64,000 nt of DNA from Chloroflexota bacterium. GTDB lineage: Bacteria; Chloroflexota; Anaerolineae; J102. Position numbers and translations under genes: made by a program. Location: positions 1 through 64,000 of the forward strand of contig JAKOVD010000147.1 in assembly GCA_029782215.1 (NCBI GenBank), read 5' to 3'. The notes under the pieces are model-generated. The model saw only the letters and a list, made by a program, of their open reading frames with translations. It did not search any database and had not been told where the DNA came from. This document shows, piece after piece, positions 874 through 60,901 of this stretch (position 1 is its first letter; every line of letters begins with the position of its first letter).

Positions 874-985
874 TGCGTGATAACGTGATGATTTGCAGGA
901 TTCTTCACGTATTACGTGTTGCGCAGTACGCATGACGTGTCACTCCGTGACCGTCCTCTGCCTTCCGTCCTCCGTCTCCCGCCGT
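874..985. repeat. Heptanucleotide-register tract T1 (16 x 7 nt)
   Basis: tgcgtga|taacgtg|atgattt|gcaggat|tcttcac|gtattac|gtgttgc|gcagtac|gcatgac|gtgtcac|tccgtga|ccgtcct|ctgcctt|ccgtcct|ccgtctc|ccgccgt. Confidence 0.7.
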
Positions 986-1052
986 TGACATCAGCGCGAA
1001 GCGGGGGCTACAATCGACCCCAGACCTTCACCCCACGGACCAGGAGAACCCC

Positions 1053-1520
1053 ATGTCCCAGCTTGCCCGCTCGCGCGGCCTTTACTTCGAGGAATTCCAG
1101 ACCGGCGAAAGCGTCGAAAGCGTTGGCCGCACCATCACCGAGGCCGACATCGTCCAGTTCGCCATGCTTTCGGGCGACTGGAACCAGATCCACACCGACG
1201 CCGAGTACAGCAAGAGCCAGATGACGGGCGAGCGCATCGCCCACGGGCTGCTGGTGCTCTCGGTGGCCACGGGCCTTGCCACCCGGCTCGGCTTCATGGA
1301 GGACACGGTCATGGCCTTCATGGGCCTGGAATGGGAGTTCCGCGGCGCGGTCAAGATCGGGGACACCGTGCACCTGCGCGCCACGATCGCCGAGAAGAAG
1401 GACATGCCGCGGCTGGGCGGCGGCTATGTCACCCTTAAGGTCGAGGTGCTGAACCAGGCTAACGCCAAGGTGCAGCGGGGAACGTGGACGGTGCTGGTCA
1501 AGCACCAGCCGGACGCATAG
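1053..1520 (+). CDS. MaoC-like (R)-hydratase domain protein
   Basis: FQTGESVESVGRTITEADIVQFAMLSGDWNQIHTDAEYSK: hot-dog MaoC signature. Confidence 0.9.
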   Translation: MSQLARSRGLYFEEFQTGESVESVGRTITEADIVQFAMLSGDWNQIHTDAEYSKSQMTGERIAHGLLVLSVATGLATRLGFMEDTVMAFMGLEWEFRGAVKIGDTVHLRATIAEKKDMPRLGGGYVTLKVEVLNQANAKVQRGTWTVLVKHQPDA

Positions 1521-1526
1521 TCTTGT

Positions 1527-1582
1527 TACGCATTACGGAGTACGCAGTACGCATCACGTACTTCGTACTGCGTAATGCGTAA
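1527..1582. repeat. Heptanucleotide-register tract T2 (8 x 7 nt), also near-palindromic
   Basis: TACGCAT TACGGAG TACGCAG TACGCAT CACGTAC TTCGTAC TGCGTAA TGCGTAA. Confidence 0.9.
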
Positions 1583-1585
1583 AGG

Positions 1586-2881: not shown

Positions 2882-2951
2882 TGCCACTTGCGACCTGCGA
2901 CTTGCCCTTGCCCCGCCACCCGCTACCCGTCTCCCGCTACCCTTTTCCCCC
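2882..2951. repeat. Heptanucleotide-register tract T3 (10 x 7 nt), contains the hutI stop codon
   Basis: TGCCACT TGCGACC TGCGACT TGCCCTT GCCCCGC CACCCGC TACCCGT CTCCCGC TACCCTT TTCCCCC. Confidence 0.75.
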
Positions 2952-4221
2952 GCTTATAGACCGCTGTGACGGGGTTGGTGCCGTAGCGATAGGCGAGATC
3001 GCGGTAGTCGGCGGCGTCCAGGATCAGGAAGTCGGCCTGGTAGCCAGGCGCCAGGGCGCCCACGCGGCGGCCCAGCCGCAGGGCGTGGGCGGCATTGAGC
3101 GTCGCCGCCGTCAGGGCCTCGGCCGGGGACAGATGCATGAAACGCGTGGCCAGGGCCATCATCATCGGCATCGATTCGCACCAGGTGGTGCCGGGATTGA
3201 GGTCGGTGGCCAGGGCGACGGCGCCCCCGCAGTCGATCAGGCGCCGCGCCGGGGCGAAGTGCGTGGAGCCCAGGCCGAAGGGCGTGCCGGGCAGGACCAC
3301 GCCCACCGTGGGTGAGGCCGCCAGCCGCTTGAGCTCGTCGTCTCCCGTGCGGACCAGGTGGTCCACCGACACCGCGCCCAGCTCCACCGCCAGGGTGGTA
3401 CCGCCCATGGGCTCAAACTCGTCGACGTGCAGCTTCAGGTCCAGGCCGTGGGCTTGCGCTGCCTCCAGGATGCGGCGGGTTTGGGCCACGTCGAACACGC
3501 CGCGCTCGCAGAAGACATCACAGAAGGCGACCGCACGCCGCTGGTACACGGGGCCGTCCTCCGGGGTCACCGTATACAACAGGTAGGCCAGCTCGGGCAG
3601 CATCTCCTCCACGATCAGATCGACGTAGGCATCGGTGCGGCCGCGGTACTCGGGTGGCACGGCATGGGCGCCCAGGAAGGTAGGCGCCAGGTCGATCGGC
3701 TGCTGCTCGTCGAGCACGGCGATGGCGTCAAGCATCTTGCGCTCGTCCTCCAGCGCCAGCCCGTAGCCGGTCTTGATCTCGGCCGTGGTGGTGCCGAATG
3801 CCAGCATGCGGTCCAGGCGGCGCCGGGTCTCGGCGACAAGCTGGTCCAGCGAAGCCGCCCGCGTGGCCCGCACCGTCGACACGATGCCGCCGCCTGCAGC
3901 CATGATCTCCATATAGGTGGCGCCGGCCAGACGCTGCTCGAACTCAGCGCAGCGGTCGCCTGCCCACACGGCGTGGGTGTGCGGGTCGATAAAGCCCGGC
4001 ACGACGGCGCGGCCGCCGCCATCCACGACCTCGACCGCCGCGTAGCGCGCTTCCAGATCATCCTGAGGTCCGGCGGCGACGATCTGCCCCTGCCGGACGG
4101 CCAGCGCGGCTTGTCTGACCAGGGTCAGCTCGCCCATGGCGGCGCCCTTGCGGGCCTGGCTGCTGGCGGGAGGCGTGGCGAGCTGGCCGATATGGGTCAG
4201 AAGCAGGTCGACGGTTTCCAT
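2923..4221 (-). CDS. hutI: Imidazolonepropionase
   Basis: PGFIDPHTHAVWAGDR, LHVDEFEPMGGTTLAVELGAVSVDHLV, DLNPGTTWCESMPMMMALATRFMHLSPAEALTAAT: HutI hallmarks. Confidence 0.95.
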   Translation of the reverse strand: METVDLLLTHIGQLATPPASSQARKGAAMGELTLVRQAALAVRQGQIVAAGPQDDLEARYAAVEVVDGGGRAVVPGFIDPHTHAVWAGDRCAEFEQRLAGATYMEIMAAGGGIVSTVRATRAASLDQLVAETRRRLDRMLAFGTTTAEIKTGYGLALEDERKMLDAIAVLDEQQPIDLAPTFLGAHAVPPEYRGRTDAYVDLIVEEMLPELAYLLYTVTPEDGPVYQRRAVAFCDVFCERGVFDVAQTRRILEAAQAHGLDLKLHVDEFEPMGGTTLAVELGAVSVDHLVRTGDDELKRLAASPTVGVVLPGTPFGLGSTHFAPARRLIDCGGAVALATDLNPGTTWCESMPMMMALATRFMHLSPAEALTAATLNAAHALRLGRRVGALAPGYQADFLILDAADYRDLAYRYGTNPVTAVYKRGKRVAGDG

Positions 4222-4236
4222 GGCCTTTAGCACTAT

Positions 4237-7161
4237 TCAGCGACAACTACGCGAAGGGACGTCCTGCACCGGCGCCAGGGTAAGCCCGCTGGCGCCGTGC
4301 GTCCAGATGTTGGGGTAGGTGGCGACGCCGTCCACGTCGGTCCAGAAATAGATGCGGTGGGCGGGGTCGTTGGCGGCGCTGACGTCGATGTCGTTGAAGT
4401 CATAGACCAGCCAGGACAGACCGTTCGCGCTGTAGGTGCGGGTGACACCCACGGGCGCCTGCGCCCGCCCGTCATCGACGCCGTTGTCGACGGCCGCGTG
4501 CAGCCGCGCCACCGGCTGCGGCCGCACCGTGGAAGCCAGCGCCCGCAGCGTGTCCTGGACGAACAGGTAGGTCGTGAGGTTGGCCTTCCTGGCCACCGTC
4601 ACCGGATCGCCGTTGTAGGGCCACAGGATCTCGATCCTGGCATCGATAGCCGAAGGGGCCGTGGTGGTCGTGCCCGTGGGGACATCCAGTTGGGGCGCCA
4701 GGGTGCGGGCATCCACGCCGTGCGTCCAGATGTTGCGCCGGGTCTCGACGCCGTCTACGGTGACGAAGAACTGCAAGCGGTTGGCCGGATTGCGGGCGGC
4801 GCTCACGTCGACGTCGTTGAAGTCCCAGACCGTGACCGTGCGGCCGCCAAGCACCGTCGCGCGCGGCTGACCCACGGCGACGGGTCGCGCGGGCTCGTTG
4901 TTGAGCGCCTTCCACAGGCGGACGACGCCGCTGTAGTTGCAGGTTACCGGCTCTAGAGCCGCGTTCTGGTAGAGATGCGCCGTGATGTTGGCCAGCCTGG
5001 CGTCACTCACCGCAGCGCCGCCATGCGGCCACACGATCTCGATCTTGGCGATGACAGGCGTCGGGACCGGTGTGGCGGTGGGGGTGCGCGTCGGCGTTGG
5101 CGACGAGGTTGGTGTGCGCGTCGGAACCGCCGTGGGGGTGGGGGTCGGGGTGTTGGTTGCCGTAGCCGTGGCCGTCGGTGTACGTGTGGGGGTGGAGGTC
5201 GCGGTCGGCGTCCAGGTGGGGGTGGCGGTTGGTGTGGAAGTGGGCGTGCGCGTGGGAGTCTGTGTGGCGGTCGCTGTGGGCGTGGGTGTGGCCGTGGCCG
5301 TCGGCGTCGCCGTCAGAAGCAGCATCGGCGTGGCGGAGGGGCTGGCAGCCGTGGTCGCGGTGGGCGTCACCATAGTTATCGCGGTGGGCGTGGACGTCGA
5401 CGTGGGTGTGGGCGTCGGCGTGGCAGTCGTCGTCGGGCTGGCGGTCGCCGTAGGCGTGGGCGTGAGGGTTGGCGTTGCCGTAGGTGTCGACGTCACCGAG
5501 GGCAGGGCGGTGGGGGTGCGGGTAGGCGTCCGTGTGGGTGTCGCCATCGGGCATTGGCCGGCGGCAAAGATGTCCAGGCTGCCGGCCTGGTAGGCTGAGA
5601 CGTAGATGCGCCCGTTCACCACCGCGATCCCCTGGCCGCCGTGTTCCACACCCTGCGCTGCCAGGGGCAGGGTGCTCACCAGGGTCCCGCTGGCGGCATC
5701 GACGATCATGAGTCGGCTGCCGGCGGCGTCGACGGCAAGCACCTGGCGCGCCAGGGAATTGTAGGCCAGCGCATAGGGCGGGGCCGGCAGCAGCAGACGC
5801 TGGAGCTGCACCCCGGTTGAGGCGTCGAGCACCAGGATGCTGCTGGCCGTGCGGCTGCCGACGTAGAGCCGGTTACGCGACGGGTCGTAGGCGATGCCGA
5901 ACGCGTCGCCCCCGGTCACGGGTCCAAAGGTGGCCTGCAGCGCGCCGTCGGCGCCCACCACGCTGACATACCCGTCGAGATGGGTCACGTAGGCCCGGTC
6001 GGGCAGAGCCAGAGCCAATGCCGGCAGCGGATGCACAGACACAGAGGTCAGGCGATACTCAGCCGTCAGGTCGAAGACGCTGACGCTGTTGTCTCCGTAG
6101 TTGGCCACGTAGAGGCGGTCGCCGTCAGCAGAGGCGCCCCAGGGCAGGCTGCCGGTGTTAAGCAAGGCGACCTGGCGCGCCGTCGCGGTGTCGATGACGG
6201 CGACGGAGCTGCTGTCGCGGTTGGCGAGGTAGGCAAGGCCCTGCCAATAGGCGACGCCGTTGGCGCCGCTGCCCGTGGTAGCCGCCACCTGCACGGTCCC
6301 ATCCGGCGCCGCTATGGCCAGCGCAGAATTGACCTGAAGGCCCACAAAGGCGGTGCCGGAGGCATCGGCAGCCACCCCACGGGCGCCTGCGCCCACCACA
6401 ACCCGACCGAGAGGTCGCGTCAGACAGCGATCCGGGGTGGGAGTGGCGGTGGGTGTGCGCGTGGGGGTCATGGTGGGGGTGGGTGTAGCCGTGGGCGTCA
6501 GGGTGGGCGTGAGCGTGGGCGTCGGAGGCGTGGCCAACACAGGGAGAAGCTCAGGTCTTATGTTGAGCAATTCGACGGCACTGGCGCGCAACCAGGCCGG
6601 CTGCGCCGCCACGCAGCACACTGCATACCACTGGCCATCGCTGTTCTTGCCCAGCACGGTGAACTGGCTGCCCTTGACGGCTGTGCTTACGCGAACATAG
6701 CCATCGCCCGGTCCACTCAATAGAGGCGTCTGGTTGGCCGTCACGCGCACCAGAGGCACCGGCGTCGCAGTGAGCGTAGGCGTCGGCGTACGAGTCGCCG
6801 TCGGGGTGGGCGTGGGGGTGAGCGTCGGCGTCGGCGTCAAGGTCGGGTACTGAATCATCATGTCCAGGTAGGGCCGCTCCAGGATAGGCGCCCCCTCGCT
6901 GCTGGTCATCGCCGCCGCCAGCACCCCGGTGCTTGTGTTGCGCAGCATCAGCCCGTAGTTGCGGGCAGGATTGGCCTGCCACTCCCGCACCACGTCCGTG
7001 ATATCGACGCGCATTTCCGCACCCGCCGGCAGCAGCCCCGAGCCCACCTGCAGTGAAGCGGCATCGTCTTCCCCCTGCGCTCCCGGCGCTCCCCAGGCCT
7101 CGGTGGCGTTCGCCATCAGGTAGGTGGCTGCCGCCGTCCAGGGTCGCAGCAGCTTGTGCAC
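4237..7161 (-). pseudogene. C-terminal part of an interrupted secreted protein: end of DNRLRE domain, SH3-like domain, beta-propeller, Thr/Pro linkers, two tandem C-terminal domains
   Basis: [24 protein letters not shown] (DNRLRE end); TPTPTAT linkers; YVTN-like propeller; same frame as ORF 7177..9384, separated by a single TAG. Confidence 0.7.
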
Positions 7162-12653: not shown

Positions 12654-15326
12654 CTAGCGCATCATCATCGGCATGAAGAGGTGCTCCGTGTACTCGACAG
12701 TACTGGTGGGCGTGGCCGTCGCCGCCGCGGTGATGGTCGCGGTGGCCGTCGGCGTCGGCGTGGCCGTTGCCGTAGGTGTTGCCGTGACCGCCGTGGTGGG
12801 GGTCGCCGTGAGGGTGCCCAGAGGCTCGTGGCGGAAATGCCAGGTGAGCTGAATGCCGGCCTGCACGGGCAGCACCACGGAGCTGGCAGGCTTGCCTTCG
12901 CCGTAGCCAGGCGGCGCCGTTTCGCTCAGGAAGTAATTTCCCGGCGCGAGGTTGGCAAACGAATAGCTGCCGTCAGCGCCGCTGGTGGTCTGCTGGTTGG
13001 TGGGATTGCCAACGCCGGTGAGCGTCAGGACGGCGCCGCCCAACCCTTCGCCCGGATCCGGCTGGTTGTTGCCGTTGGCGTCACGATAGGCCATGCCGTT
13101 GATGACGCCGACGCTCGGCGTCGCCGTCGGAGTGGTCGTGGCGGTCGGCGTCACGGTCGGCGTCGCGGTGGTGGTGGGAGTGACGGTCGGGGTCGGGGTG
13201 TCAGTCGGCGTAGGTGTGGGCGTGGCTTCGACGATCTCCTGCACCTTGCGCACGTCGACATGATGGATGTACTCGTCGCCATCCGGCACACCCAGGTGGC
13301 TGCGACTGTCGATGTAGAAGTCAGCATAGCCGATCGGATTGTTCACCGTGGCGCCGATGCCATTGTTGAAGTTGCCGTCTTCGATCACGAAGACCGCCAC
13401 CTTCCACTTGCCAGTGTCCGTTTTCTTCACGTAGGTGACGTTGCCAGGCACCTTGCCTTCGTCGACCAGGACGCCGTCAATGGCCAGGCCACGGCGAACG
13501 GTCCAGTCGTTGATGCTGTAGAGCTGCGCCGCCTTGGGACCCTGCACCGAATCGTAGACCAGCAGCCACTCATCGGTGCCCTTGTCAAGGTAGGTCACGG
13601 TGACGTAGGCCTTGAAGGTGCTGTCTGCGGGAGGCTGCGACCGGGCAAAATAGCGGTCATCGGCATCGAAGTAGAAGTACCATTGCCCGGTCTTCTGGTC
13701 AGTGCGTCGCGCCACCCACCCCGGATCGACCGAAATCTGGACGCCGTTGGGGCCGTAGGTCCCGTAGAGACCGGCGTCACGCAGCTCCTGACTGTAAGGG
13801 CTCGTGTTGTAGTGCGAGATGGTCTTGTCCTCGGCGGGCGTCTCAGGGCGATTCCATCCCATCGTCGTGATCCGAACATCATCGGTCATGGGAATGGTCG
13901 CGCCTCTCTTGTCAGGCAAGTCCTTCTGATAGAGGTAGAACTCGTGATTGCCGATGGTCGGCCAGATATTGCCGGTGCTCAGATAGGCGTAGGGCAGGAT
14001 GACGGGCCAACGATGTTCGCGCATGGTCGACCAGATCGAGGGTGGCGTATCTTGCCCCAGCTTGAAACCGGCGCCGAGGAACTTGGACGCCCACTCGGTA
14101 ATGGTAAAGTTGTCGGCCGGACTCGGCTTGGTGGGATCCTTGCTCCAGAAGCTGGAGAGCCGGAAGTAGTCGGCCTTGAGACCCAGGGCGAACTGCGTCG
14201 CCCAGTAGAACTCATTTGGCGTCGACATCATGTAGCCGTAGCTTTCCAGCGCCGAAGCCGTAATGCCACTGTACGAGCGCACCTGGTCGTGAAACGCCGT
14301 GCAGTTGACGGAAGGATCCGCAGCTCGACACGCCTCCATGAAGTCGAAGTCGGAGGTCGTATTATTGACGGAAAGGCCCACACCGCGGGTCGCCGCGTAA
14401 GCGGCGATGTCGCGCCTCTCGTACGACTTCTGGTAGAAGGGCGCGTTCTGGATGAGCAACTGGATCTTGGGAGACCCTGGGGCCACGTAGAACGCAGCAA
14501 CATGGGTGTCGATCGCCCATCTGACAAAGTCGAGCCATGCGCTAATGGACAGGCCGTTGGCCATCAGACTGGGATCGTCCTCATCGTCGGCGGGCTTGTT
14601 CTCCCCGTCCTTGCCGGTGCCGATGGCGACCCAGGCGACCTTGTCCTTAAGCGGTGAGGACAGGAGATGCTGGGCCAGGGCATTGACGAAGGCGGCGTAC
14701 TGAGCCTTGTAGTAGGCATCCGTATACTTGGGCAGGTACCAGTCGATGTTGTCGGGCTGGCCGTCGCCGTTGCAGTCGCGGTAGTCGAGCTCCTGCGATT
14801 TGACGCGGGTGTCGTCGGCAGTGCCCAGGACGCCATCCGGCCCGGCCTGCACCCACTTCGGCGTCATGTCAATGCCGCCCAACGGGTTGGTAGGCGTACA
14901 GCCGACGTAGCGGCCAGTATAGGTGTACAGGGCGATGCCAACCTGTTTGTAACCCGCATTCACGCTGTTGGTGATGAAGGAATCGATACTGCTGAAGTCG
15001 TAGCCGCCCTTGGTCGAGTTGAGAGAAGCCCAGGTGAAGAAGGCGTAGGAGCCAACGGCGCTGTACTTGCTCGCCGGCTGCAGGATCTTGGCCTTGTCAG
15101 CATCACTTGACGGGTTCTCAACGTAATAGCCGGACTCGCCTGCCGGGGGTGGCGCATAATCGATGCTCGCGGGTTGAGCAGGCGCCTGGGCAGGGCTTGC
15201 GGGCGTCGGCGCGTCGGACGCATCATTGGCTGCACGCGTCGAGCCAGTGGCGACGACCACCGGGACGGCGACCGCAGCCAGCAGAACGAAGACGGTGCCG
15301 AGTAGAAGGAGGGCCTTCTTACTCAT
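12654..15326 (-). CDS. Secreted TIM-barrel-like protein with SdrD B-like domain, Thr/Pro linkers and C-terminal LFMPMMMR
   Basis: Signal peptide MSKKALLLLGTVFVLLAAVAVPV; GMAYRDANGNNQPDPGEGLGGAVLTLTG...TTSGADGSYSFANLAPGNYFLSETAPPGY (SdrD_B-like); TPT linkers. Confidence 0.7.
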   Translation of the reverse strand: MSKKALLLLGTVFVLLAAVAVPVVVATGSTRAANDASDAPTPASPAQAPAQPASIDYAPPPAGESGYYVENPSSDADKAKILQPASKYSAVGSYAFFTWASLNSTKGGYDFSSIDSFITNSVNAGYKQVGIALYTYTGRYVGCTPTNPLGGIDMTPKWVQAGPDGVLGTADDTRVKSQELDYRDCNGDGQPDNIDWYLPKYTDAYYKAQYAAFVNALAQHLLSSPLKDKVAWVAIGTGKDGENKPADDEDDPSLMANGLSISAWLDFVRWAIDTHVAAFYVAPGSPKIQLLIQNAPFYQKSYERRDIAAYAATRGVGLSVNNTTSDFDFMEACRAADPSVNCTAFHDQVRSYSGITASALESYGYMMSTPNEFYWATQFALGLKADYFRLSSFWSKDPTKPSPADNFTITEWASKFLGAGFKLGQDTPPSIWSTMREHRWPVILPYAYLSTGNIWPTIGNHEFYLYQKDLPDKRGATIPMTDDVRITTMGWNRPETPAEDKTISHYNTSPYSQELRDAGLYGTYGPNGVQISVDPGWVARRTDQKTGQWYFYFDADDRYFARSQPPADSTFKAYVTVTYLDKGTDEWLLVYDSVQGPKAAQLYSINDWTVRRGLAIDGVLVDEGKVPGNVTYVKKTDTGKWKVAVFVIEDGNFNNGIGATVNNPIGYADFYIDSRSHLGVPDGDEYIHHVDVRKVQEIVEATPTPTPTDTPTPTVTPTTTATPTVTPTATTTPTATPSVGVINGMAYRDANGNNQPDPGEGLGGAVLTLTGVGNPTNQQTTSGADGSYSFANLAPGNYFLSETAPPGYGEGKPASSVVLPVQAGIQLTWHFRHEPLGTLTATPTTAVTATPTATATPTPTATATITAAATATPTSTVEYTEHLFMPMMMR

Positions 15327-17525: not shown

Positions 17526-18020
17526 CTAGAGAAGGCGGCCGGCATAGCGGGCGCGCGGATAATCGGCCAGGTAGTGCTCCCACTGCACGTAGAAGCGATC
17601 GGCCAGGTGGAAGCGATAGATCAGCCGCGCCGTCGACGTCAGAGTCTCGACCTTGGACGCCGTTTCCACGTAGATAACGGGAATCCGCCGCGTTTTGGCG
17701 GCAATGGCCAGGGGAATCTGCAGGCTGGGTCCGGCGCCAATGAGGGCGTCGGGCCGGGCCTCGGCCAGGATGCGGCGCGCCTGCACCAGCGCCCGCGGCA
17801 TCTTGCGCAGCACCGTCCAAACGCCCTCCGTCGCGCCCATCCGCTTCTCGCGCGGCTGCGTCATCCGGTAGACCGGACCCTGGGCAGCGATTTTGTGCTC
17901 AGAGACCGTGTCGTAGTCGGCGACGACGTAACAGTAGTCGAAGTCCGGGCCCAGCAGGTCCACCAGGCGGAGCATCTGCTTGGTGTGGCCGCCGGCGCCC
18001 AGAACGATGAGAAGGCGCAT
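17526..18020 (-). CDS. PssD/Alg14-like glycosyltransferase subunit
   Basis: MRLLIVLGAGGHTKQMLRL...DALIGAGPSLQIPLAIAAKTRRIPVIYVET. Confidence 0.9.
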   Translation of the reverse strand: MRLLIVLGAGGHTKQMLRLVDLLGPDFDYCYVVADYDTVSEHKIAAQGPVYRMTQPREKRMGATEGVWTVLRKMPRALVQARRILAEARPDALIGAGPSLQIPLAIAAKTRRIPVIYVETASKVETLTSTARLIYRFHLADRFYVQWEHYLADYPRARYAGRLL

Positions 18021-18030: not shown

Positions 18031-18177
18031 AAGTGGGAAATGCGAATTGCGAAGTGCGAAGGTCGTGGTGCGTGATGCGTGATACGTGAGAAGACGTGTC
18101 CTCGGTCCTCCGTTCTCTGTCTTCAGTTCTCCGTCCTCTGCCGTCTGACGACTGGCGACTGACGACTGACGACTGTC
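18031..18177. repeat. Heptanucleotide-register tract T4 (21 x 7 nt)
   Basis: aagtggg|aaatgcg|aattgcg|aagtgcg|aaggtcg|tggtgcg|tgatgcg|tgatacg|tgagaag|acgtgtc|ctcggtc|ctccgtt|ctctgtc|ttcagtt|ctccgtc|ctctgcc|gtctgac|gactggc|gactgac|gactgac|gactgtc. Confidence 0.9.
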
Positions 18178-19100
18178 TCAAAGACCCACGTCCGCAGGTC
18201 GATGGTCGGGGCGAAACCAAGATAGCGGCGGATACGGCTGAGGTCGGCGTACTGCGACGGCCGGGCTTCGCTGTTGGCGGCGGTGTCGACCCGCGGCGCT
18301 GAAGCGATGCCGGATGCGGCGAGGCACCAGTCCGCCAGTTCTTGCAGGCTTGTCAGCTTGCCACTCCCGACGTTGAGCGTCAAGCCGGACGGCAGGTCTG
18401 TGGCCAGGGCGAGCGTGAAAGCCCGCAGCACATCCTCCACGTGGACGAAGTCGAACGCCGTGGCAGGATTGCCGTGGATGGTGGGGGGAACACCCCCAAG
18501 CACGGCGGTCAGAAACCGGCCTTCGACGGTGATGCGCAGGTCACCGGCGGAACTATGCCCGAACACCTGGAAGATGCGCAGAATGGTCGTGTGCAGGCCG
18601 AAGGCGCGGCTGTACATGCCGCAGTAGGCTTCGGCTGCGCCTTTGCTCACGCCGTAGGCGCTGACCGGCGCCAGGGGCGTGTCTTCGTCCAGGCAGCCCG
18701 CGGCCGCACCGTAGACGGCGCTCGTGGATGCGAGCAGAAAGCGACGGACCCCGGCCGCTTTGGCGGCTCGCAACGCCTGCAAGGCGCCCTGGGCGTTGAC
18801 CTGAAGATCAAACACGGGGTCCTGTTCGCTACGGTACTGAGGCTGCACCGCCAGGTGGACGACGGCGTCGCAACGCGCGGACGCCTCCGTGAGGGCATCC
18901 AGGTCGCGCACATCTCCCACGCACCAAGCCGCCAGCCCCAGGTCAGTATGCTCATGACGACCGAAGCCGATCACCTCGTGGCCCAGGTCCCGCAAGCGGG
19001 GCGCCAACCAGGAACCCAGGTAACCGCCAGCCCCGGTCACAAGGATGCGCACTTGCCGTTCCTCCGCAGACGCTGCCGGGCCTAGCCCTGCAGGTACCAC
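18123..19100 (-). CDS. NAD-dependent epimerase/dehydratase
   Basis: ILVTGAGGYLGSWLAPRL; YGVSKGAAE; C-terminus runs into tract T4. Confidence 0.9.
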   Translation of the reverse strand: MVPAGLGPAASAEERQVRILVTGAGGYLGSWLAPRLRDLGHEVIGFGRHEHTDLGLAAWCVGDVRDLDALTEASARCDAVVHLAVQPQYRSEQDPVFDLQVNAQGALQALRAAKAAGVRRFLLASTSAVYGAAAGCLDEDTPLAPVSAYGVSKGAAEAYCGMYSRAFGLHTTILRIFQVFGHSSAGDLRITVEGRFLTAVLGGVPPTIHGNPATAFDFVHVEDVLRAFTLALATDLPSGLTLNVGSGKLTSLQELADWCLAASGIASAPRVDTAANSEARPSQYADLSRIRRYLGFAPTIDLRTWVFETVVSRQSPVVRRQRTEN

Positions 19101-47405: not shown

Positions 47406-47443
47406 AAGTGCGACGCACCTGCGAGGTGCGTCGCACTTTTCTT
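47406..47443 (+). terminator. Intrinsic terminator hairpin
   Basis: AAGTGCGACGCACCT-gc-g-AGGTGCGTCGCACTT followed by a T-rich tail, 3 nt after the msrB stop. Confidence 0.85.
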
Positions 47444-48701
47444 ACCGCCACTTCCCCGTGATCGCTGCCTCCAGGCACTGCTCCATGTCGCCGAAACGCA
47501 TGTCGACGCCGCTGTGCATGGGCGCATAACAGGCCATCTTGCCGGCGTTGGTCGCCATGCGCTTCACGTTCAGTGCCCGCATCGGCGCCACTACGGCGCA
47601 CGTATCCGCCACCACCTCGCCCCCGGCCGCCTCGATGATCTGCACCCAGCCATCCTGAGCCGCCCGCTCGCGGGTGATCCGTGAGGTGGTCACCCACAGC
47701 CGCGTCGTCAGGTTGTGGCCCTGCAGGCGCTCGGCCACCTGCTGCAGCTCAGTGTAGGAAGCGTGGGGGCAGCCGATGGTCACCAGATCGATGGCAGTCG
47801 TCTCGGGATTGGCATCCATCACCGCATAGGCAGGCGCCAGCGAGTCGATGACGATGCGCTGTGCATCGGGCCGGAGCAGACGCTCGCCCTGGTCGCGGGC
47901 CTCGGGTGTGTAGCCGGCGATGTGATATAGCGCCACGGCGCCGTAAGCGGCGACTCCTGCCCCCAGGGTCTTGAGGCGGTCGCCTGCCTCGCCGCCCAGG
48001 GTCAAGTCCTCGGGCAAGGGCGGCAGCCAGGCGCCCAGATCGGGGAAGTAGGGCACACCGTTGCCCACTGCCTTGCCCACGAGGTAGCTCAGGGCGCCAA
48101 AGTCGGCAATATCGGGCACCGGGCACGTGACCTCGACGACATGGGTGGCCCGGCGCTCCTCCTCCAGGTGATAGCCGTAGCGGGCGGTGCGCCCGACCAG
48201 GGCGGCAGCCAGGGCGCTGGGGCCGCCTTCCCGGTTGCTGAAGGCGCCCACCACCGAGTTGGCCCAGGCCACGGCGCTGGACTCGGCCCAGGCCAGGTGG
48301 TCGCCGCGCTTGGGGGCAAAGCCAGGCATCAGGTAGGGCGTGCAAGACATGGTGGGCGTGACGCCCATGCGCACAAAGGCGCCAATGGCCGTGAGCTGGG
48401 GCCGGGCAAAGCCGGGACTGATGCCCATCGCCTCCCAGCGATCGAGCTCCATCCCCGCCGGGTTCAGCGTCGTGGGCACGACGGTCTTGGCCCCCTGCTC
48501 CGCCCACTCGTTCAGGAAGTCGACCCCGGCGTCGCCCAGGTTCTTGTAGCTGACGCCGGAGATCTGCACGTGGCTGACGGGCACGAGATCGGGCGCGCCG
48601 TAGATGCGGCCCAGGGCGACGACGATCTCCATCGCCCTCTTGACGCCGGGACCGGCAGCGCCATCCAGCAGGGATTGTTCTTCAGGGGTAAGGTAGAGCA
48701 T
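47442..48701 (-). CDS. Aconitase X catalytic domain protein (DUF521)
   Basis: MLYLTPEEQSLLDGAAGPGVKRAMEIVVALG; VSHVQISGVSYKNLGDAG; TVVPTTLNPAGMD-like motif. Confidence 0.92.
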   Translation of the reverse strand: MLYLTPEEQSLLDGAAGPGVKRAMEIVVALGRIYGAPDLVPVSHVQISGVSYKNLGDAGVDFLNEWAEQGAKTVVPTTLNPAGMELDRWEAMGISPGFARPQLTAIGAFVRMGVTPTMSCTPYLMPGFAPKRGDHLAWAESSAVAWANSVVGAFSNREGGPSALAAALVGRTARYGYHLEEERRATHVVEVTCPVPDIADFGALSYLVGKAVGNGVPYFPDLGAWLPPLPEDLTLGGEAGDRLKTLGAGVAAYGAVALYHIAGYTPEARDQGERLLRPDAQRIVIDSLAPAYAVMDANPETTAIDLVTIGCPHASYTELQQVAERLQGHNLTTRLWVTTSRITRERAAQDGWVQIIEAAGGEVVADTCAVVAPMRALNVKRMATNAGKMACYAPMHSGVDMRFGDMEQCLEAAITGKWR

Positions 48702-48702: not shown

Positions 48703-48758
48703 GTTGAAGGTTGCAGGTTGCAGATTGAAGGTTGAACGTTCAACGCCTAACGTTCAGC
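48703..48758. repeat. Heptanucleotide-register tract T5 (8 x 7 nt)
   Basis: GTTGAAG GTTGCAG GTTGCAG ATTGAAG GTTGAAC GTTCAAC GCCTAAC GTTCAGC; fills the gap between the acnX start codon and the next gene's stop. Confidence 0.92.
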
Positions 48759-48973: not shown

Positions 48974-49050
48974 GACCGCAGACGGCCGACCGCTGACCGC
49001 GGAGTTCGGGAGAATCCGTCGGCGGTCGTCCGTCGGTGGTCGGCGGTCGT
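48974..49050. repeat. Heptanucleotide-register tract T6 (11 x 7 nt)
   Basis: GACCGCA GACGGCC GACCGCT GACCGCG GAGTTCG GGAGAAT CCGTCGG CGGTCGT CCGTCGG TGGTCGG CGGTCGT. Confidence 0.85.
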
Positions 49051-49090: not shown

Positions 49091-49765
49091 ATGGAAGCCC
49101 TCCAGCGGCAAAGTATCCCGTCGATCCAAGTCAAGATCTGCGGACTGACCAACCTGGCCGATGCGCAGGCGGCGGTAGCGGCAGGGGCCGATTTGCTCGG
49201 CTTCATCTGCTACCCCAAGTCGCCGCGCTACGTCACCACCGAACAGATCGGCGCCATCCTGGCCGGCCTGGCGCCCGGGCCGAAGGCATGGCGCAGCGTC
49301 GGCGTCTTCGTCGATGCGCCCCTCGCGACGGTCTGTGAGGTGCTCGACCGCACCGGTCTTGATTTGGCGCAGCTTCACGGCGGCGAGCCGCCCGCTTTGC
49401 TCGAGCAGCTCGAAGGCCGCGGTTTCAAGGCCCTGCGCCCGGCCAGCCTGGCCGAGGCCGAAGCCGACGCCGAGTGGTACACCGGCTTGGGACCGGCCGA
49501 TGGCCCCGACCTGCTGATCGACGCCTATCACCCCATCGTCTACGGCGGCACCGGCCTGCGCGCCGACTGGCTGATCGCCGCCGCCATCGCCCGCAGTCAC
49601 CGCCTGCTGTTGGCAGGCGGCCTCACCTCTGCCAACGTCACCGCCGCCGTCGCGGCCGTCCGGCCCTGGGGCGTGGATGCCAGCAGCGGCGTCGAGACCC
49701 GCCCCGGCCAGAAAGATCACGATGCCGTGGCTGCGTTCATCGCTGCGGCAAGACAAGAGACCTAG
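49091..49765 (+). CDS. trpF: Phosphoribosylanthranilate isomerase
   Basis: [63 protein letters not shown]. Confidence 0.97.
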
Positions 49766-49769: not shown

Positions 49770-50966
49770 ATGCTTCACGCCAACGTCCCCGATGCCCACG
49801 GCCGCTTTGGTCCTTACGGTGGCCAATTCGTGCCCGAAACCCTGATGCCGGCGCTGGCCGAGCTGGAAGCGGCGTACGCGGCCGCCAAACAGGACCCGGA
49901 GTTCTGGAGCGAGTTCAACGGTTACCTGCGCCACTACGTCGGCCGGCCCACGCCCATCTCCTTCGCCCGCCGCCTGACTGAGCACCTGGGCGGCGCCCAG
50001 ATCTACCTCAAACGCGAGGACCTGGCCCACTCCGGCGCCCACAAGATCAACAACGCCCTCGGCCAGGCCCTGCTGGTCAAGCGCATGGGCAAACAGCGCG
50101 TGGTAGCGGAGACCGGGGCCGGACAGCATGGCGTCGCCACGGCCACCGCATCGGCGCTCCTGGGCATCGACTGTGTGGTCTACATGGGCACCGTCGACAT
50201 GGCCCGGCAGGCCCCGAATGTCTTCCGCATGAAACTGCTCGGCGCCGAGGTGCGCGGGGTGGACAGCGGCAGCAAGACCCTCAAGGACGCCATCAACGAA
50301 GCGATCCGTGACTGGGTGACCAACGTCGACGGCACCCACTATCTGCTCGGCTCGGCCCTGGGCCCCCACCCGTATCCCCTCATCGTGCGGGATTTCCAGC
50401 GGGTGATCGGCGACGAGTCCCGCCGGCAGATGCAGGAACAGGCGGGCCGGCTGCCGGACACAGTGGTTGCCTGCGTGGGCGGCGGCTCCAACTCCATCGG
50501 CATCTTCTACGCCTTTCTCGACGACCCCAACGTGCGCCTGGTCGGGGTGGAGGCCGGGGGCCGGGGCATCGCCAGCGGCGAGCACGCCGCCCGCTTCGCC
50601 GACCCCAAGCTAGCGCGGCTGGGCGTGCTGCACGGCACCCGCTCCTTTGTGATGATGGACGCCGACGGCCAGATCGCACTCACGCACTCCATCAGCGCAG
50701 GCCTCGACTATGCGTCCGTGGGACCCGAGCACGCCTATCTGCGCGACTTGGGCCGCACCGAGTACACCTACTGCACCGACGACCAGGCCCTGGCCGGCTT
50801 CCGCGCCCTGTGCCGCTTCGAAGGCATCATCCCCGCCCTGGAAAGCGCCCACGCCATCGGCCACGTCCTCGACCTGGCGCCAACCCTGCCCGAGGACCAC
50901 ATCATCCTCGTCAACGTCTCCGGCCGCGGCGACAAAGACCTGGATACGGTGATGCGTGAGGCGTGA
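49770..50966 (+). CDS. trpB: Tryptophan synthase beta chain
   Basis: [59 protein letters not shown]. Confidence 0.98.
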
Positions 50967-51043
50967 TTACGCATCACGTTATCACACCTCACGCATCACC
51001 AATTCACAATTCACAATCCGCAATCCGCAATCCGCAATTCCCC
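50946..51043. repeat. Heptanucleotide-register tract T7 (14 x 7 nt)
   Basis: ACGGTGA TGCGTGA GGCGTGA TTACGCA TCACGTT ATCACAC CTCACGC ATCACCA ATTCACA ATTCACA ATCCGCA ATCCGCA ATCCGCA ATTCCCC. Confidence 0.95.
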
Positions 51044-51855: not shown

Positions 51856-52671
51856 ATGGCCGATGCCGGTGAGATGACCGCCGCGGCTCTCCGGCCACCC
51901 TTGAAGTGGGCGGGAGGGAAGCGCTGGCTGGCGCCGCACCTGGCGGCGATCTGGGCGCCCTACCGCGGGCGGCGGCTGGTGGAGCCGCTGTGCGGGGGAC
52001 TGGCGGTGTCGCTCAGCCTGGCGCCGGAACGGGCGTTGCTCAACGACATCAACCCGCACGTCATCAATTTCTACCACTGGCTGCAGGCCGGGCTGGCGAC
52101 GACGCTGCCGATGCGCAATGAGGCCGAGCTCTATTACCAGCACCGGCAGCAGTTCAACCGCCTGATCCACGAAGGCCGGGCAGCCACGGCCACAGCCGCG
52201 GAGCTCTTCTACTACCTCAACCGCACCGGCTACAACGGCCTCTGCCGCTTCAACCGCAGCGGCGAGTACAACGTTCCCTTCGGCCGCCACAAGACCCTCC
52301 ACTATCTCACCGACTTCTCGGACTACCGGGCCGCGTTCGCCGGCTGGCAGTTCACCAGCAAGGACTTCGAGGCGCTTGTCCTGGACCCGGACGATTTCGT
52401 CTACGCCGATCCGCCCTACGACGTCCAGTTCACGCAGTACGCCCAGGGCGGCTTCGGCTGGGACGACCAGGTCCGCTTCGCCGCCTGGCTGGCCGGCCAC
52501 CCCGGCCCGGTCGTGCTCTCCAACCAGGCCACTAGCCGCATCATCGACCTCTACCAGCAGTTGGGCTTCACCCTGACCTTCCTCCAGGCCCCGCGCCAGA
52601 TTGCCTGCAACGGCGACCGCACCCCCGCGCGGGAAGTGCTGGCGATGAGGAACGTGAAGCGTGATGCGTGA
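51856..52671 (+). CDS. DNA adenine methylase (Dam-like)
   Basis: PPLKWAGGKRWLAPHL; FVYADPPYDVQFTQYAQGGFGWDDQVRFA (DPPY). Confidence 0.93.
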   Translation: MADAGEMTAAALRPPLKWAGGKRWLAPHLAAIWAPYRGRRLVEPLCGGLAVSLSLAPERALLNDINPHVINFYHWLQAGLATTLPMRNEAELYYQHRQQFNRLIHEGRAATATAAELFYYLNRTGYNGLCRFNRSGEYNVPFGRHKTLHYLTDFSDYRAAFAGWQFTSKDFEALVLDPDDFVYADPPYDVQFTQYAQGGFGWDDQVRFAAWLAGHPGPVVLSNQATSRIIDLYQQLGFTLTFLQAPRQIACNGDRTPAREVLAMRNVKRDA

Positions 52672-52797
52672 GGACGTGATACGTGTTGCGTACGCCGTAC
52701 TCCGTAACGAGTAAGGCCTGTTCCTGAAGCCGTCGGTCCTCTGTCTTCCGTCCTCCGCCCTCGGCCACCTTCCACCTGCTACCGGCTACCTGCTACT
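52651..52797. repeat. Heptanucleotide-register tract T8 (21 x 7 nt)
   Basis: AACGTGA AGCGTGA TGCGTGA GGACGTG ATACGTG TTGCGTA CGCCGTA CTCCGTA ACGAGTA AGGCCTG TTCCTGA AGCCGTC GGTCCTC TGTCTTC CGTCCTC CGCCCTC GGCCACC TTCCACC TGCTACC GGCTACC TGCTACT. Confidence 0.92.
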
Positions 52798-52798
52798 C

Positions 52799-53570: not shown

Positions 53571-53585
53571 CGCCAACCACTATCC

Positions 53586-53661
53586 TGTCATTGCGAAGCC
53601 CGATAGGGCCGAGGCGATCGCCAACCCGATTGGGGATTGCCTCACTGCGTTCGCAATGACA
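53586..53661. repeat. Nested palindrome copy 3
   Basis: 76 nt; perfect 12-bp terminal arms TGTCATTGCGAA / TTCGCAATGACA. Confidence 0.95.
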
Positions 53662-53672
53662 TACCCTCGTCC

Positions 53673-53748
53673 TGTCGTTGCGAAGCCCGATAGGGCCGAG
53701 GCAATCGCCAACCCGATTGGGGATTGCTTCACTGCGTTCGCAATGACA
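53673..53748. repeat. Nested palindrome copy 4
   Basis: 76 nt, nearly identical to copy 3, 11 nt away. Confidence 0.95.
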
Positions 53749-56585: not shown

Positions 56586-56620
56586 CGTTGAACGTTCAAC
56601 GTTGAACGTTTAGCGTTCAA
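56586..56620. repeat. Heptanucleotide-register tract T9 (5 x 7 nt)
   Basis: CGTTGAA CGTTCAA CGTTGAA CGTTTAG CGTTCAA. Confidence 0.9.
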
Positions 56621-56633: not shown

Positions 56634-56873
56634 ATGTTACGAAATACCCTGTATTACGGCGACAACCTTCCCATCCTGCGCCAGTACATCGCCAGCGAGA
56701 GCGTGGACCTGGTGTACCTGGATCCGCCCTTCAACTCCAACCGCTCCTATATCACCATTGCCGACCTTTTCAACGGCCAGGAGGTCAAAATGCCCATGAC
56801 CGCCACCACCTTCAAACAGGCCGGCCGGGAACAGGGGGCCGGGGGCGAGGAGCAGGGATCGCTGTTCAGCTAA
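56634..56873 (+). pseudogene. Internally deleted DNA methyltransferase remnant
   Basis: MLRNTLYYGDNLPILRQYIASESVDLVYLDPPFNSNRSY (N-term, DPPF) directly joined to ITIADLFNGQEVKMPMTATTFKQA...EEQGSLFS (C-term-like). Confidence 0.7.
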
Positions 56874-56901
56874 ACGTTGAACGTTCAACGTTGAACGTTC
56901 A
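56874..56901. repeat. Heptanucleotide-register tract T10 (4 x 7 nt)
   Basis: ACGTTGA ACGTTCA ACGTTGA ACGTTCA. Confidence 0.9.
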
Positions 56902-56912
56902 ACCGACACCCA

Positions 56913-57428: not shown

Positions 57429-57433
57429 GCTGC

Positions 57434-57461
57434 ACCTTTCAACCTTTAACCTTCAACCTCT
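57434..57461. repeat. Heptanucleotide-register tract T11 (4 x 7 nt)
   Basis: ACCTTTC AACCTTT AACCTTC AACCTCT; ends exactly where the next stop codon begins. Confidence 0.88.
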
Positions 57462-58457
57462 CTACTGCACCACCCGCACCCACCGCAGCGGCAGCCAGCC
57501 GTCGATGGTGGGGTCGCCCTCGGCCGGGAAGACGACATGGACCCAGGGGTCGCGGCGCTCCAGGATGCGGACGGTGCTGCCCACGATCAGGGCCTGGTTG
57601 GTCAGGCCGGTGTTGGGGTCGGGCGCCGTGCGGATGTAGACGTTGCCCAGCATCTGCCCCAGCAGCGGCGGCGGGGTCACCGTGGGCGTGGAGGTGGGCG
57701 TCGACGTGGGGGTGAAGGTCGGCTCCGGCGTGGGCGTGGCGGTGGGCGTGGGCACAGGCGTGTTCGTGGGGACAGGCGTCGGCGTGGGGGTCGGCGGGGG
57801 CACGGGTGTGTCCGTGGGGATGGCGATGTAGACGACGGCTGTCGGCGCCAGGTGGGCCAGAAGGCGGGGGCTGGCGGCGTAGGCCAGCCAGCCGCAGCCG
57901 CAGACCAGGGCCAGCAGCGCCAGCACGATCACGGCCAGGCCGGCGATCGGGCGCTTCGCCGCCGCGCCCGCCGCGTCCGCAGGAGAGCGCCCCCCCAGCC
58001 GGAGCTCCACCCCCTCCGCCCGCGCCCAGAGGCCGTCGCTCAGCGCCCGGCGCAGGGCCGGGCCGACGAAGGGCGCCAGCAGGGCGGCGGCCGCCTCGCG
58101 GTCGGCCGGCGTCCACCCGCCCAAGGGGCCACGCTCCAACAGCGCCTTGTCCCCAGGCTCACCATCGCCCCCGCCCGCGGCGCCGGGCTCCACGATCTCG
58201 CCGTCTGCGGGCCCATCGCCTTCCAGCAGCGGCTGTATCAACGCCAGTATTTGTTCGGTGCCATCCGGGCGCTGCGCCAGCAGTGCCAATTCGGCCCGCA
58301 GCGCTTCGAGGCGCTGGCGGTCCTGGGTGCGCAGGATGGCCAGAAGGGTGTCGAGATCGGGGGGGGAATTTTCCACGGGAACGCCTGACTGTGGCTCGAT
58401 CGATCCGGTCTCTGGCGGGTCATTCAATTGACGTTCCGCAGTCGCCTGCGGTTCCAT
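57462..58457 (-). CDS. Single-TM protein with Thr/Pro linker and SH3-like domain
   Basis: TM IAGLAVIVLALLALVCGCGW; TPTPTPVPTNTPVPT linker; NVYIRTAPDPNTGLTNQALIVGSTVRILERRDPWVHV. Confidence 0.75.
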   Translation of the reverse strand: MEPQATAERQLNDPPETGSIEPQSGVPVENSPPDLDTLLAILRTQDRQRLEALRAELALLAQRPDGTEQILALIQPLLEGDGPADGEIVEPGAAGGGDGEPGDKALLERGPLGGWTPADREAAAALLAPFVGPALRRALSDGLWARAEGVELRLGGRSPADAAGAAAKRPIAGLAVIVLALLALVCGCGWLAYAASPRLLAHLAPTAVVYIAIPTDTPVPPPTPTPTPVPTNTPVPTPTATPTPEPTFTPTSTPTSTPTVTPPPLLGQMLGNVYIRTAPDPNTGLTNQALIVGSTVRILERRDPWVHVVFPAEGDPTIDGWLPLRWVRVVQ

Positions 58458-58785
58458 CAGTATACACCAGGACCTGGCGACTCGTAGTTGTCCTGTCACG
58501 TTGAGCGGGTCGCCCGGCCAACCCTGACTTCACCGCCACGACAGCGAAACATCTCTGACCCTCCCTATGCTCACAGCACGCCTTTCAACAACCGCCTCTC
58601 CACCCTCCACCCGGAGAGGTTTCGTCGCTCCGCTCCTCCACAGGACAGATACGCCTCTCGCACGGACGTGAGCCTCCCGGAGGTCCTGTGAGCGCCTGTG
58701 CTATACTTGGCCCGATTGTGAAGGGCCGGTCCGCACGCGGGGCCTCATGGCGCCGCCGGACGGTCCCTGGACGGTCGTAGGCGTT

Positions 58786-59199
58786 ATGTCGATTCGTACC
58801 CGCGTCGTTCTCGTCGTCATCGGCCTGCTGGTGTTGGGCGTGGTCATCAACCTGCTGCGCACCCGCCGCCTCAAGGAAGAGTACGCCCTGCTCTGGCTCG
58901 TGGCGGCGCTCTCACTGGTCGTGGGGCCGCTGCTCATCGACCCGCTGGACGCCATCGCCTATTTCCTGGGCGTCGATTACCCGCCCGCCGTCTACCTGGG
59001 GGTGGGCATCATCGGGCTGCTGCTCATCCTGTTCCAGCTTTCGCTCAACATCTCGCGCTTCAGCGACGCCATCCGCGTGCTGACGCAGGAGAACGCCATC
59101 CTCGGCCAGCGCGTCCAGGCTTTGGAACAGCACCTGGAGCTTCCTCCTGAGGAGTCGCGCCCGGCACCCGCCCAGGAGCACGATGCCGAGCAAGCTTAA
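58786..59199 (+). CDS. DUF2304 domain protein
   Basis: LLRTRRLKEEYALLWLVAALSLVVGPLLIDPLDAIAYFLGVDYPPAVYLG. Confidence 0.88.
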   Translation: MSIRTRVVLVVIGLLVLGVVINLLRTRRLKEEYALLWLVAALSLVVGPLLIDPLDAIAYFLGVDYPPAVYLGVGIIGLLLILFQLSLNISRFSDAIRVLTQENAILGQRVQALEQHLELPPEESRPAPAQEHDAEQA

Positions 59200-60835
59200 G
59201 CCCTACCTGGCCCCAGCCTTCCTGGCTCTGGTGGGCTTTGTCGTGCGCTGGCGCTACAGCTCGTTCGAGCGCACCGTCTGGGGCGACGAGCCCTTCTACC
59301 TGTGGCTGGGGCGCAACTGGTTCCACGGCCAGGGCTACGCCTTCCAGTTCACCGGGCACCTCGACTACCACCACACGCCCGGCTACCCCTTCATCACCGC
59401 CGTCCTGACCGCGGTCACCGGCGACATGAAGCGGGCCAGCGAGTGGAGCTATATCCTGTTCGGCGTGGTTTTCGTCCTCGCCGTCTACGCCCTGGCCCAC
59501 CGCATCTACGGTCCCCGCACCGCCTTTGCCGCCGGCGGACTGATTGCCCTGGCGCCAGTGACCTCGCTCATGCCCCTGTTCTGGGGGACCATGACCGAGC
59601 CGCCCTACTGGGCCTTCTGCTTCCTGGGCCTGCTCTTCGCCCACCGAGCTTACACCCGTTTCCGCGTCGCCGACATCCTCCTGGCCGGGCTGTTCTTCGC
59701 CCTGGGCTACTACGTGCGGCCGGAGGCCATCGTCTACGTGGGGGCGATGGGCCTGGTGCTGGGGCTGCGCGCCCTCAGCGCCGCGCCCCGCCTGCGCCGG
59801 CTCGCCTACCCGGCCCTGCTCGGCGTCACTTTTCTCATAGTCATTTTTCCCTACCTGGTCTACGTGCGCCAACAGGCAGGCGTCTGGACGATCAGCCAGA
59901 AGGTGGGGGCGAACTTCGCCACGGCCGAAGGCCTGGCCAGCGGCGACTTCGTGCGCTTCGACCAGGAAACCTGGGGGCTGGACAGCAAGGGCGAGAACGT
60001 GCGCTTCTTCAGCCGCGAGACCGCCGGCGCCTCGGCCTCGGCGTACATCCTCGCCAACCCCATCGGCTATGTGCGCACCGTCTACGGCAACGTCCTCGAC
60101 CTTCTGGCGACGATCCTCTCGCCCCGCCTGGTGCCCAGCTTCTTCCTGATCTTCATCGGCCTCGGCCTGTTCGCCGCCGGCTGGACCCGGCGCCGCGCCT
60201 GGGATGAGCTGTTCCTGGTCGCCACCCTGCTGCCAGGGCTGAGCTTCGTGCTCTTCTTCGTCCAGGAGCGCTACCTGGCCCCCCTCCCGCCCACGCTGTT
60301 CATCTGGACGGCGCACGGGCTGGCCGTTGCCGGCGACTGGCTGGCAGCGACCTGGGCCAGCCTCCGCCGCCATGAGCCTGCGGCAGGCGCTGCGGCAGGC
60401 AACGCTGCCCGCTGGTTGGTGTGGGTCCCCACGGCGGTCATGCTGCTTTTCATGCTCTTCTACACACCGCGCCAGGTGGCGGCAGCCACCAACCCCGGCT
60501 CGTCCCGCCCGGCCCACGACCTGGCGGCCCTGGCGCTCAAGCCCTACGTCCAGCCCGGCGACGTGGTCATGACCCGCTACCCCGCCATACCCTTCGAGGC
60601 CGGGGCAGAGTGGGCACCTACGCCCGCCGCCGACATCCCGGCTGTCCTCGCCTACGCCCGGCTCAAGCACGCCCGCTTCTGGGCCATCGATGCCGTCGAG
60701 GTCGCCAAGCTGCGTCCCCAGTTCGCCCCCCTGCTCGAGCACCCCGACCAGGCCCCGCCCGGCCTTGAGTTCGTGGCCCAGGTCACGGACAAGGACGGCC
60801 CGGTGGTGATCTATCGGTTGGGCGGAGGGCAGTAA
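59183..60835 (+). CDS. GT39/ArnT-like membrane glycosyltransferase
   Basis: WGDEPFYLWLGRNWFHGQGYAFQFTGHLDYHHTPGYPFITA. Confidence 0.85.
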   Translation: MPSKLKPYLAPAFLALVGFVVRWRYSSFERTVWGDEPFYLWLGRNWFHGQGYAFQFTGHLDYHHTPGYPFITAVLTAVTGDMKRASEWSYILFGVVFVLAVYALAHRIYGPRTAFAAGGLIALAPVTSLMPLFWGTMTEPPYWAFCFLGLLFAHRAYTRFRVADILLAGLFFALGYYVRPEAIVYVGAMGLVLGLRALSAAPRLRRLAYPALLGVTFLIVIFPYLVYVRQQAGVWTISQKVGANFATAEGLASGDFVRFDQETWGLDSKGENVRFFSRETAGASASAYILANPIGYVRTVYGNVLDLLATILSPRLVPSFFLIFIGLGLFAAGWTRRRAWDELFLVATLLPGLSFVLFFVQERYLAPLPPTLFIWTAHGLAVAGDWLAATWASLRRHEPAAGAAAGNAARWLVWVPTAVMLLFMLFYTPRQVAAATNPGSSRPAHDLAALALKPYVQPGDVVMTRYPAIPFEAGAEWAPTPAADIPAVLAYARLKHARFWAIDAVEVAKLRPQFAPLLEHPDQAPPGLEFVAQVTDKDGPVVIYRLGGGQ

Positions 60836-60873
60836 ACCGGACCCCTTCCTAACGGTCGGGGCTCTCAATGCGC

Positions 60874-60901
60874 CGCTATCTGCTATCTGCCACCTGCCAC
60901 C
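60874..60901. repeat. Heptanucleotide-register tract T12 (4 x 7 nt)
   Basis: CGCTATC TGCTATC TGCCACC TGCCACC, then TC-ATG. Confidence 0.9.

Follow-up and report, generated by a model that had tools for sequence, protein, structure and literature searches.

Tandem repeats with a unit of seven nucleotides are a recognised feature of bacterial genomes: heptanucleotides have been described as the most abundant long simple sequence repeats (LSSRs) in most of them (Mrazek 2007, as cited in PMC4679880), and polymerase slippage with a 7-nt contact has been proposed as the cause (Mrazek et al. 2007, as described in PMC4679880 and PMC4692102). Known intergenic examples are the short tandemly repeated repetitive (STRR) sequences of cyanobacteria, the TAACTGA repeats of Beggiatoaceae and the GGGAATC repeats of Xanthomonas (PMC4679880, PMC4692102). 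Here we consider twelve heptad tracts (T1–T12) in the window, a 64,000-nt stretch of a Chloroflexota genome (contig JAKOVD010000147.1, positions 1–64,000), which a sequence-only reading had presented as a kind of repeat not yet described. As heptanucleotide repeats are already known in bacteria, the 7-nt period is not new and this claim is not supported; the tracts belong to the known class of intergenic simple-sequence repeats with a heptanucleotide unit, in an unusually diverse form. What appears to be newly described, within the open-access literature searched, is that the tracts are composite and drifting, how dense they are, that many unrelated words and several phyla share one polarity, and that tracts recur in a single orthologous gap.

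Membership of the bacterial STRR/LSSR class is supported by the 7-nt unit and the mostly non-coding location. As PMC4679880 and PMC4692102 describe them, LSSRs are likewise tandem arrays between genes, in which a unit of 7 nt is over-represented more than any other; the Mrazek surveys counted near-perfect repeats, whereas here units drift, words change within a tract and polarity at gene edges is measured. Mixed heptamers have been published for Microcystis, and two Cyanothece strains are separated by indels in 7-nt increments (PMC4679880). The G-rich GGGNATC/GGGGAYT heptads of Xanthomonas and Nostoc resemble the present tracts in being intergenic, in lying close to the ORF (open reading frame) located 5' on the G-rich strand, whatever its direction, in being few in divergent gaps and in varying between relatives; those of Xanthomonas also form inverted pairs, often convergent ones (PMC4692102). 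G-quadruplexes are the stated interest of these heptads (PMC4692102), which consist of one quadruplex-capable G-run motif, whereas here 23–31 word classes occur per genome, many of them without G-runs; quadruplex formation is therefore not the common cause of the polarity described below. The TAACTGA repeats of marine Beggiatoaceae, some cyanobacteria and Bacteroidetes also abut and face start codons in a fixed orientation, with Shine-Dalgarno motifs mostly absent, and sets by upstream ORFs are reversed in single cases (PMC4679880). Unlike that system, which has a single dominant word, many words are found here, also past stop codons and in convergent gaps. TAACTGA is absent from the twelve tracts of the window; in relatives it or one-off words occur, as AGTTATC (its reverse strand) in family genome G017 and as a TTACTGA-type word in the congener G001. 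The tracts differ from cyanobacterial STRRs in the strict sense, as these are described in print, in their Chloroflexota host, their diverse words and the rarity of GGGGATT-like units. Heptads of the GGGGAYT type carry the name STRR1 in cyanobacteria.

The genome carrying the window (G000; 6.33 Mb, 214 contigs, 98.6% complete) was placed by TrpB comparison near Caldilineaceae/Anaerolineae, Chloroflexota. Stretches of it totalling 864 kb (464 kb in a first set) were sampled together with 400 kb of G001, a congener with ~80% nucleotide identity in aligned genes, small samples of each of 18 further family genomes, and 80 named loci of several phyla (1.26 Mb). Genes were called by a simple hexamer model. 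The lag-7 signal of each tract was compared with base-shuffled copies (p floor 0.0003), and word classes were defined by the heptad consensus, ignoring rotation and strand.

A window-wide scan produced peaks at lags 7, 14 and 21, the remaining strong lags being multiples of 3 that originate from coding sequence. The autocorrelation check proposed with the sequence-only reading came out in its favour: gaps in the first 464 kb of G000 contained 28 segments at lag 7, none at lags 2–6 and 8–13, and none in dinucleotide-type shuffles. In the full 864 kb there were 46 segments at lag 7, two at lag 8, one at lag 10 and none at other lags from 3 to 13, and these lag-7 segments are mostly non-coding (46 intergenic vs 11 coding, with gaps making up only 9% of the DNA). 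At lag 7 the G001 sample contained 75 tracts, amounting to ~10% of the intergenic DNA, and a further ten tracts were at lag 8. At lags 4, 5, 8, 10, 11 and 13 the 18 family genomes had 2, 0, 11, 3, 0 and 0 segments vs 48 at lag 7, and the named loci 0, 0, 5, 1, 0 and 0 vs 41. In view of this excess in family genomes and in loci of several phyla, the heptad phenomenon is general among the bacteria sampled, and it is strong in the family of G000. Tract density ranges in the small family samples from none to ~30 per 100 kb; it is ~3.5 times higher in G001 than in G000, and several family members have almost no tracts.

All twelve tracts of the window were found where the sequence-only reading had placed them, and are listed below with their lag-7 counts.

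T1, 874–985, no strand assigned: composite TGCGTGA/GTATTAC/GTCCTCC heptads with slips of register, the weakest of the twelve (43/105); a MaoC-like gene (1053–1520) starts 67 nt after it.
T2, 1527–1582, no strand assigned: near-perfect palindrome TACGCAT...ATGCGTA (38/49) filling a tandem gap, 6 nt past gene 1053–1520 and 12 nt ahead of gene 1595–2572.
T3, 2882–2951, no strand assigned: C-rich heptads (39/63), the final 29 nt lying inside the 3' end of minus-strand gene 2923–4221, and hence G-rich outward from its stop.
T4, 18031–18177, minus strand: 21 heptads (97/140, z=12), which in the sense of the minus-strand genes pass from GTCAGTC to GGAGGAC past the stop of 18123–19052, and then from TCACGCA to TTCGCAA, reaching the start of 17526–18020.
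T5, 48703–48758, minus strand: sense sequence ..CTTCAAC CTTCAAC C (36/49), 0–1 nt from the ATG of minus-strand gene 47442–48701.
T6, 48974–49050, no strand assigned: partly palindromic GACCGCA ... CGGTCGT (41/70), upstream of the phosphoribosylanthranilate isomerase (PRAI, trpF-like) gene 49091–49765.
T7, 50946–51043, plus strand: tract of the trpB-trpA gap (58/91), beginning 21 nt within the 3' end of trpB (profile TIGR00263) and finishing 2 nt ahead of the ATG of trpA (PF00290).
T8, 52651–52797, plus strand: tract (86/140) after the Dam-family methylase gene 51856–52671 (TIGR00571), covering its last 21 nt; the next predicted start is 1–2 nt beyond.
T9, 56586–56620, plus strand: GTTSAAC heptads (22/28), 13 nt ahead of a short ORF (56634–56873).
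T10, 56874–56901, no strand assigned: alternating GTTGAAC/GTTCAAC in a convergent gap, beginning at a stop codon (18/21; lag-14, 14/14).
T11, 57434–57461, minus strand: ACCTTTC/AACCTTC heptads in a tandem minus-strand gap (15/21), with some lag-8 signal as well.
T12, 60874–60901, plus strand: CGCTATC/TGCCACC heptads (18/21), 2 nt ahead of an in-frame ATG at 60904.

Among single lags, 7 scores best in each of the twelve (p=0.0003 in eleven and p=0.001 in T1), but the register is not quite as strict as had been claimed: single 8-nt steps occur in T1, T7 and T8, the motif TCAC standing at residues 1,2,2,2,3,3 mod 7 along T7 and CGTGA moving from residue 3 to 4 in T8. Rare tracts with 8-nt units occur in relatives of G000; those of the TAGACAAG type begin at stop codons in G001 (loci L109 and L113), and the orthologous gap of G000 (L141) has 7-nt TAGCCAG units in that place. 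The description of the tracts as intergenic also needs qualifying: T3, T4, T7, T8 and T12 overlap a gene end or a predicted start, so they are not purely intergenic. As T12 ends directly ahead of the in-frame ATG, the start of the radical-SAM-like ORF 60868–62175 is probably misplaced, the true start being 60904 rather than 60868; tracts can thus mislead start-codon calls.

As the sequence-only reading stated, the tracts are composite, with several words in one tract, and drift while keeping their period. Identity between units of G000 tracts is 0.79 for neighbours and ~0.52 at seven units apart, a decay that shows drift with the register kept. In G001 the identity stays near 0.8 with distance and multi-unit repeats are frequent at 14, 21 and 28 nt, including one tract of six 21-nt superunits. 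The 46 G000 tracts fall into 23 consensus word classes, and 70 tract pairs have an identical class, vs 2.1 for permuted heptads; the corresponding figures are 125 vs 6.1 in G001 and 24 vs 3.1 between the two genomes, which also have distinct classes in common (23% vs 3%). No excess of sharing was found between G000 and the non-Chloroflexota loci, and only G001 showed a weak one, so that a universal word code across phyla was rejected. Words shared within a genome and between congeners, and not with other phyla, are thus inherited and spread inside a lineage. The proposal that period is conserved more than sequence is accordingly right in that the period outlasts the drifting sequence, but words recur between tracts far above chance, and an unconstrained sequence is not supported. 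Non-palindromic words occur mostly in one orientation each (54/64 in G001, 32/40 in G000). A 3+3+1 triplet structure inside the words was also considered and rejected (cyclic lag-3 z <1.8 in every set). A dispersed REP-like (repetitive extragenic palindromic) element (GAGCTTGTCCTGAGTGAAACGAAGGATCGC) lies within or between heptad tracts in G001 loci L022, L024 and L117, where it splits AAGTGGC/GGTGGCA arrays.

The recurrence of the same words within a genome would be expected if each tract were a copy of one composite element, dispersed or mobile, whose words follow a set order, and in the same half-gap G-rich words tend to be gene-proximal and TGCGTGA-type words central (39:9; p=0.008 in family loci, exploratory). 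This order was first noticed in part of the data later used for its test, though, and a simpler version based on CGT/ACG words does not hold in G001 (p=0.66). The listed tracts show neither shared boundaries nor a pattern of target sites, and orthologous gaps differ in their words; a mobile element is very improbable.

Comparison of G000 with G001 covered 22 orthologue pairs in the sampled stretches, the poor contig synteny limiting whole-contig comparison of orthologous gaps. At one start flank only is a tract present in both genomes, with different words. In both, this gene pair has one repeat past the upstream stop, 7-nt TAGCCAG-type in G000 vs 8-nt TAGACAAG-type in G001, and another ahead of the next start, GAATTGC vs GGTGGCA. 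The two genomes therefore differ at the same gap in words and not just in copy number, and words turn over fast at orthologous gaps. The trpB-trpA gap, inspected in 36 loci of several phyla, measures mostly 14–50 nt between hits; in addition to T7, tracts with differing words occupy it in an Anaerolineales metagenome-assembled genome, Nitrospira, Aquidulcis, where it holds an inverted pair of CAGTGTT tracts, and Granulicella (Acidobacteria). In the same-family genome G008 the two hits lie 14 nt apart, and no tract separates them. Tracts arose separately in the trpB-trpA gap of different phyla. The first heptad of T7, ACGGTGA, belongs to conserved trpB coding sequence that is present in G008 as well, and the following units TGCGTGA and GGCGTGA are similar to it; judged from this one example, the resemblance suggests that the tract may have been seeded from the gene edge.

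The tracts show a pronounced polarity relative to the adjoining genes. Near starts (tracts <=40 nt from the start codon) the strand leading outward from the gene is G-rich, that is, the sense strand before the ATG is C-rich, in a ratio of 48:1 in G000 and G001, 9:0 in the family and 8:3 in the named loci; near stops the corresponding ratios in favour of a G-rich outward strand are 43:19, 12:5 and 19:3. The combined counts are 65:4 (94%) at starts and 74:27 (73%) at stops, from several phyla. In tract-free gaps the same measure gives 58–72% at starts and 47–56% at stops; therefore the start-side polarity is far above background, and the stop-side effect is moderate. Per kb, tandem gaps hold 1.22 tracts, convergent ones 0.87 and divergent ones 0.27, the last figure indicating that promoter-bearing gaps are avoided. 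Among tandem gaps of G001, those that carry tracts exceed the others in length (medians of 197 vs 115 nt), which is not so in G000. Shine-Dalgarno-like motifs occur at 0/22 tract-adjacent starts in G001 and 5/25 in G000, vs 37% and 40% of other starts (combined p=4e-5).

The placement at starts is what would be expected of functional arrays in mRNA leaders and tails, with the heptad as the footprint of a cold-shock or S1-like RNA-binding protein and C-rich, G-poor tracts driving or controlling Shine-Dalgarno-independent initiation. Start-adjacent tracts end 0–25 nt ahead of the ATG and stand in place of Shine-Dalgarno motifs, and a leader role has been proposed for TAACTGA repeats in the same position, with binding of heptamer repeats by CspB cited (PMC4679880). 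However, words change between orthologous gaps and from gene to gene, a substantial fraction of the tracts is located past stops or in convergent gaps, and the neighbouring genes are of mixed function. Since tract-free starts already lean towards a C-rich sense strand, part of the start bias is background. Dedicated leader arrays thus seem unlikely, although they retain some weight. A fail-safe providing stop codons in all three frames was rejected, stops being held by 0.33 of outward words vs 0.45 of permuted ones at starts and by 0.43 vs 0.40 at stops.

Within gaps, the left half of the top strand is G-rich and the right half C-rich, and neighbouring tracts of opposite skew are ordered G-then-C in 40/43 pairs (10:2, 21:0, 9:1). 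Polarity that follows gene edges rather than transcription could result from a break in the gap, with the 3' ends extended outward with G-rich heptads, by telomere-like synthesis or by a slipping polymerase, and then joined to leave inverted outward tracts; the position of Xanthomonas and Nostoc heptads beside the 5' ORF irrespective of its direction, and the convergent pairs of Xanthomonas, agree with this (PMC4692102). Such synthesis at DNA ends is nevertheless very unlikely. Ku (PF02735), to be expected with end-joining scars, is absent in 20/20 family genomes, and no RVT_1 match, as from a telomerase-like enzyme, was obtained in the tract-bearing G000 at its 98.6% completeness; no gradient of unit age runs from the gene edge to the gap centre, and the bias at stops falls short of that at starts.

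The G-then-C order would also permit a G-rich arm past a stop to pair with a C-rich arm ahead of the next start, as in selected RNA hairpins or terminators, and near-perfect palindromes exist (T2, and 17660–17717 of locus L007). Fold z-scores of gaps with and without tracts are close, however (-2.31 vs -1.64; -1.53 vs -1.69), arms from the same gap are just slightly more complementary than arms from different gaps, the window has no Rfam match, and terminator-like sites between 47 and 62 kb are at shuffle level. As gaps with tracts fold hardly or not at all better than those without, RNA structure is not supported as the common cause, and selected hairpins are left with a very small probability. 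As a separate observation, an 87-bp hairpin-type element (TCATTGCGA...GCAATGACA) occurs twice in tandem at 53583–53748 of the window, the copies being 96% alike, and a similar element lies in another G000 gap (L141).

The explanation favoured here, with a probability of about 60%, combines duplication by a slippage-type process in steps of 7 nt with drift, the spread of words through a genome and selective filtering, and it covers most of what was observed. During DNA synthesis, a short sequence at a gene edge would be copied in tandem, mostly 7 nt at a time and less often 8, with subsequent gain and loss of whole units; the step size is observed, and slippage is its presumed source. Point mutation would make units diverge, and new copies would be made from neighbours, so that the sequence drifts and the register stays. 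The same words, the sharing of which is observed, probably reach many gaps by ectopic copying or microhomology-mediated repair between tracts. Selection would then filter which tracts persist, removing them from divergent, promoter-bearing gaps and allowing near starts almost only G-poor, C-rich sense strands, often in place of Shine-Dalgarno motifs. The confinement of the signal to lag 7 and its multiples in gaps, the decay of unit identity, word sharing, turnover, placement and polarity were all observed and support this explanation, as do the published 7-nt indels of Cyanothece and the earlier proposal of slippage (PMC4679880, PMC4692102). The tracts are most likely tolerated rather than dedicated elements, yet the 5' leader or 3' flank of an adjoining gene is determined by them.

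Several observations weigh against this explanation. Once tracts are masked, no lag-7 signal is detected in the remaining gap sequence, which was searched for decayed tracts; intermediate decayed tracts are therefore scarcer than simple birth-and-decay predicts. Ordinary slippage, moreover, leaves unexplained the independence of the 7-nt step from the word, the G-rich-outward bias after stops and the mostly single orientation of each non-palindromic word. A bolder and rather improbable alternative would be one bacterial DNA-synthesis process with an intrinsic 7-nt step that lays G-rich units outward at gene edges whatever the gene direction, in which case a single mechanism, and not a number of distinct repeat families, would stand behind the heptads of Chloroflexota, Xanthomonas, Nostoc, Nitrospira, Acidobacteria and Beggiatoaceae.

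The window also contains coding repeats with periods of 6, 12, 18, 24 and 30 (GTGGGCGTCGGC-like), located at 5058–5475, 6434–6523, 13111–13208, 34474–34578, 36833–36955 and 57681–57820. All of these periods are divisible by 3, which sets the repeats apart from the intergenic heptads, and they are probably proline/threonine/valine-rich stalk segments of surface proteins.

The preference of bacterial tandem repeats for 7 nt has stood as an open remark since the 2007 survey. A step that is independent of the word, recurs in the same gap across phyla and is directional relative to genes makes the question testable. Any mechanism must cover step, direction and turnover jointly, for which a quadruplex or one special motif is insufficient. 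In these lineages the tracts fill many gene leaders and displace Shine-Dalgarno motifs, and they thereby bear on translation initiation.

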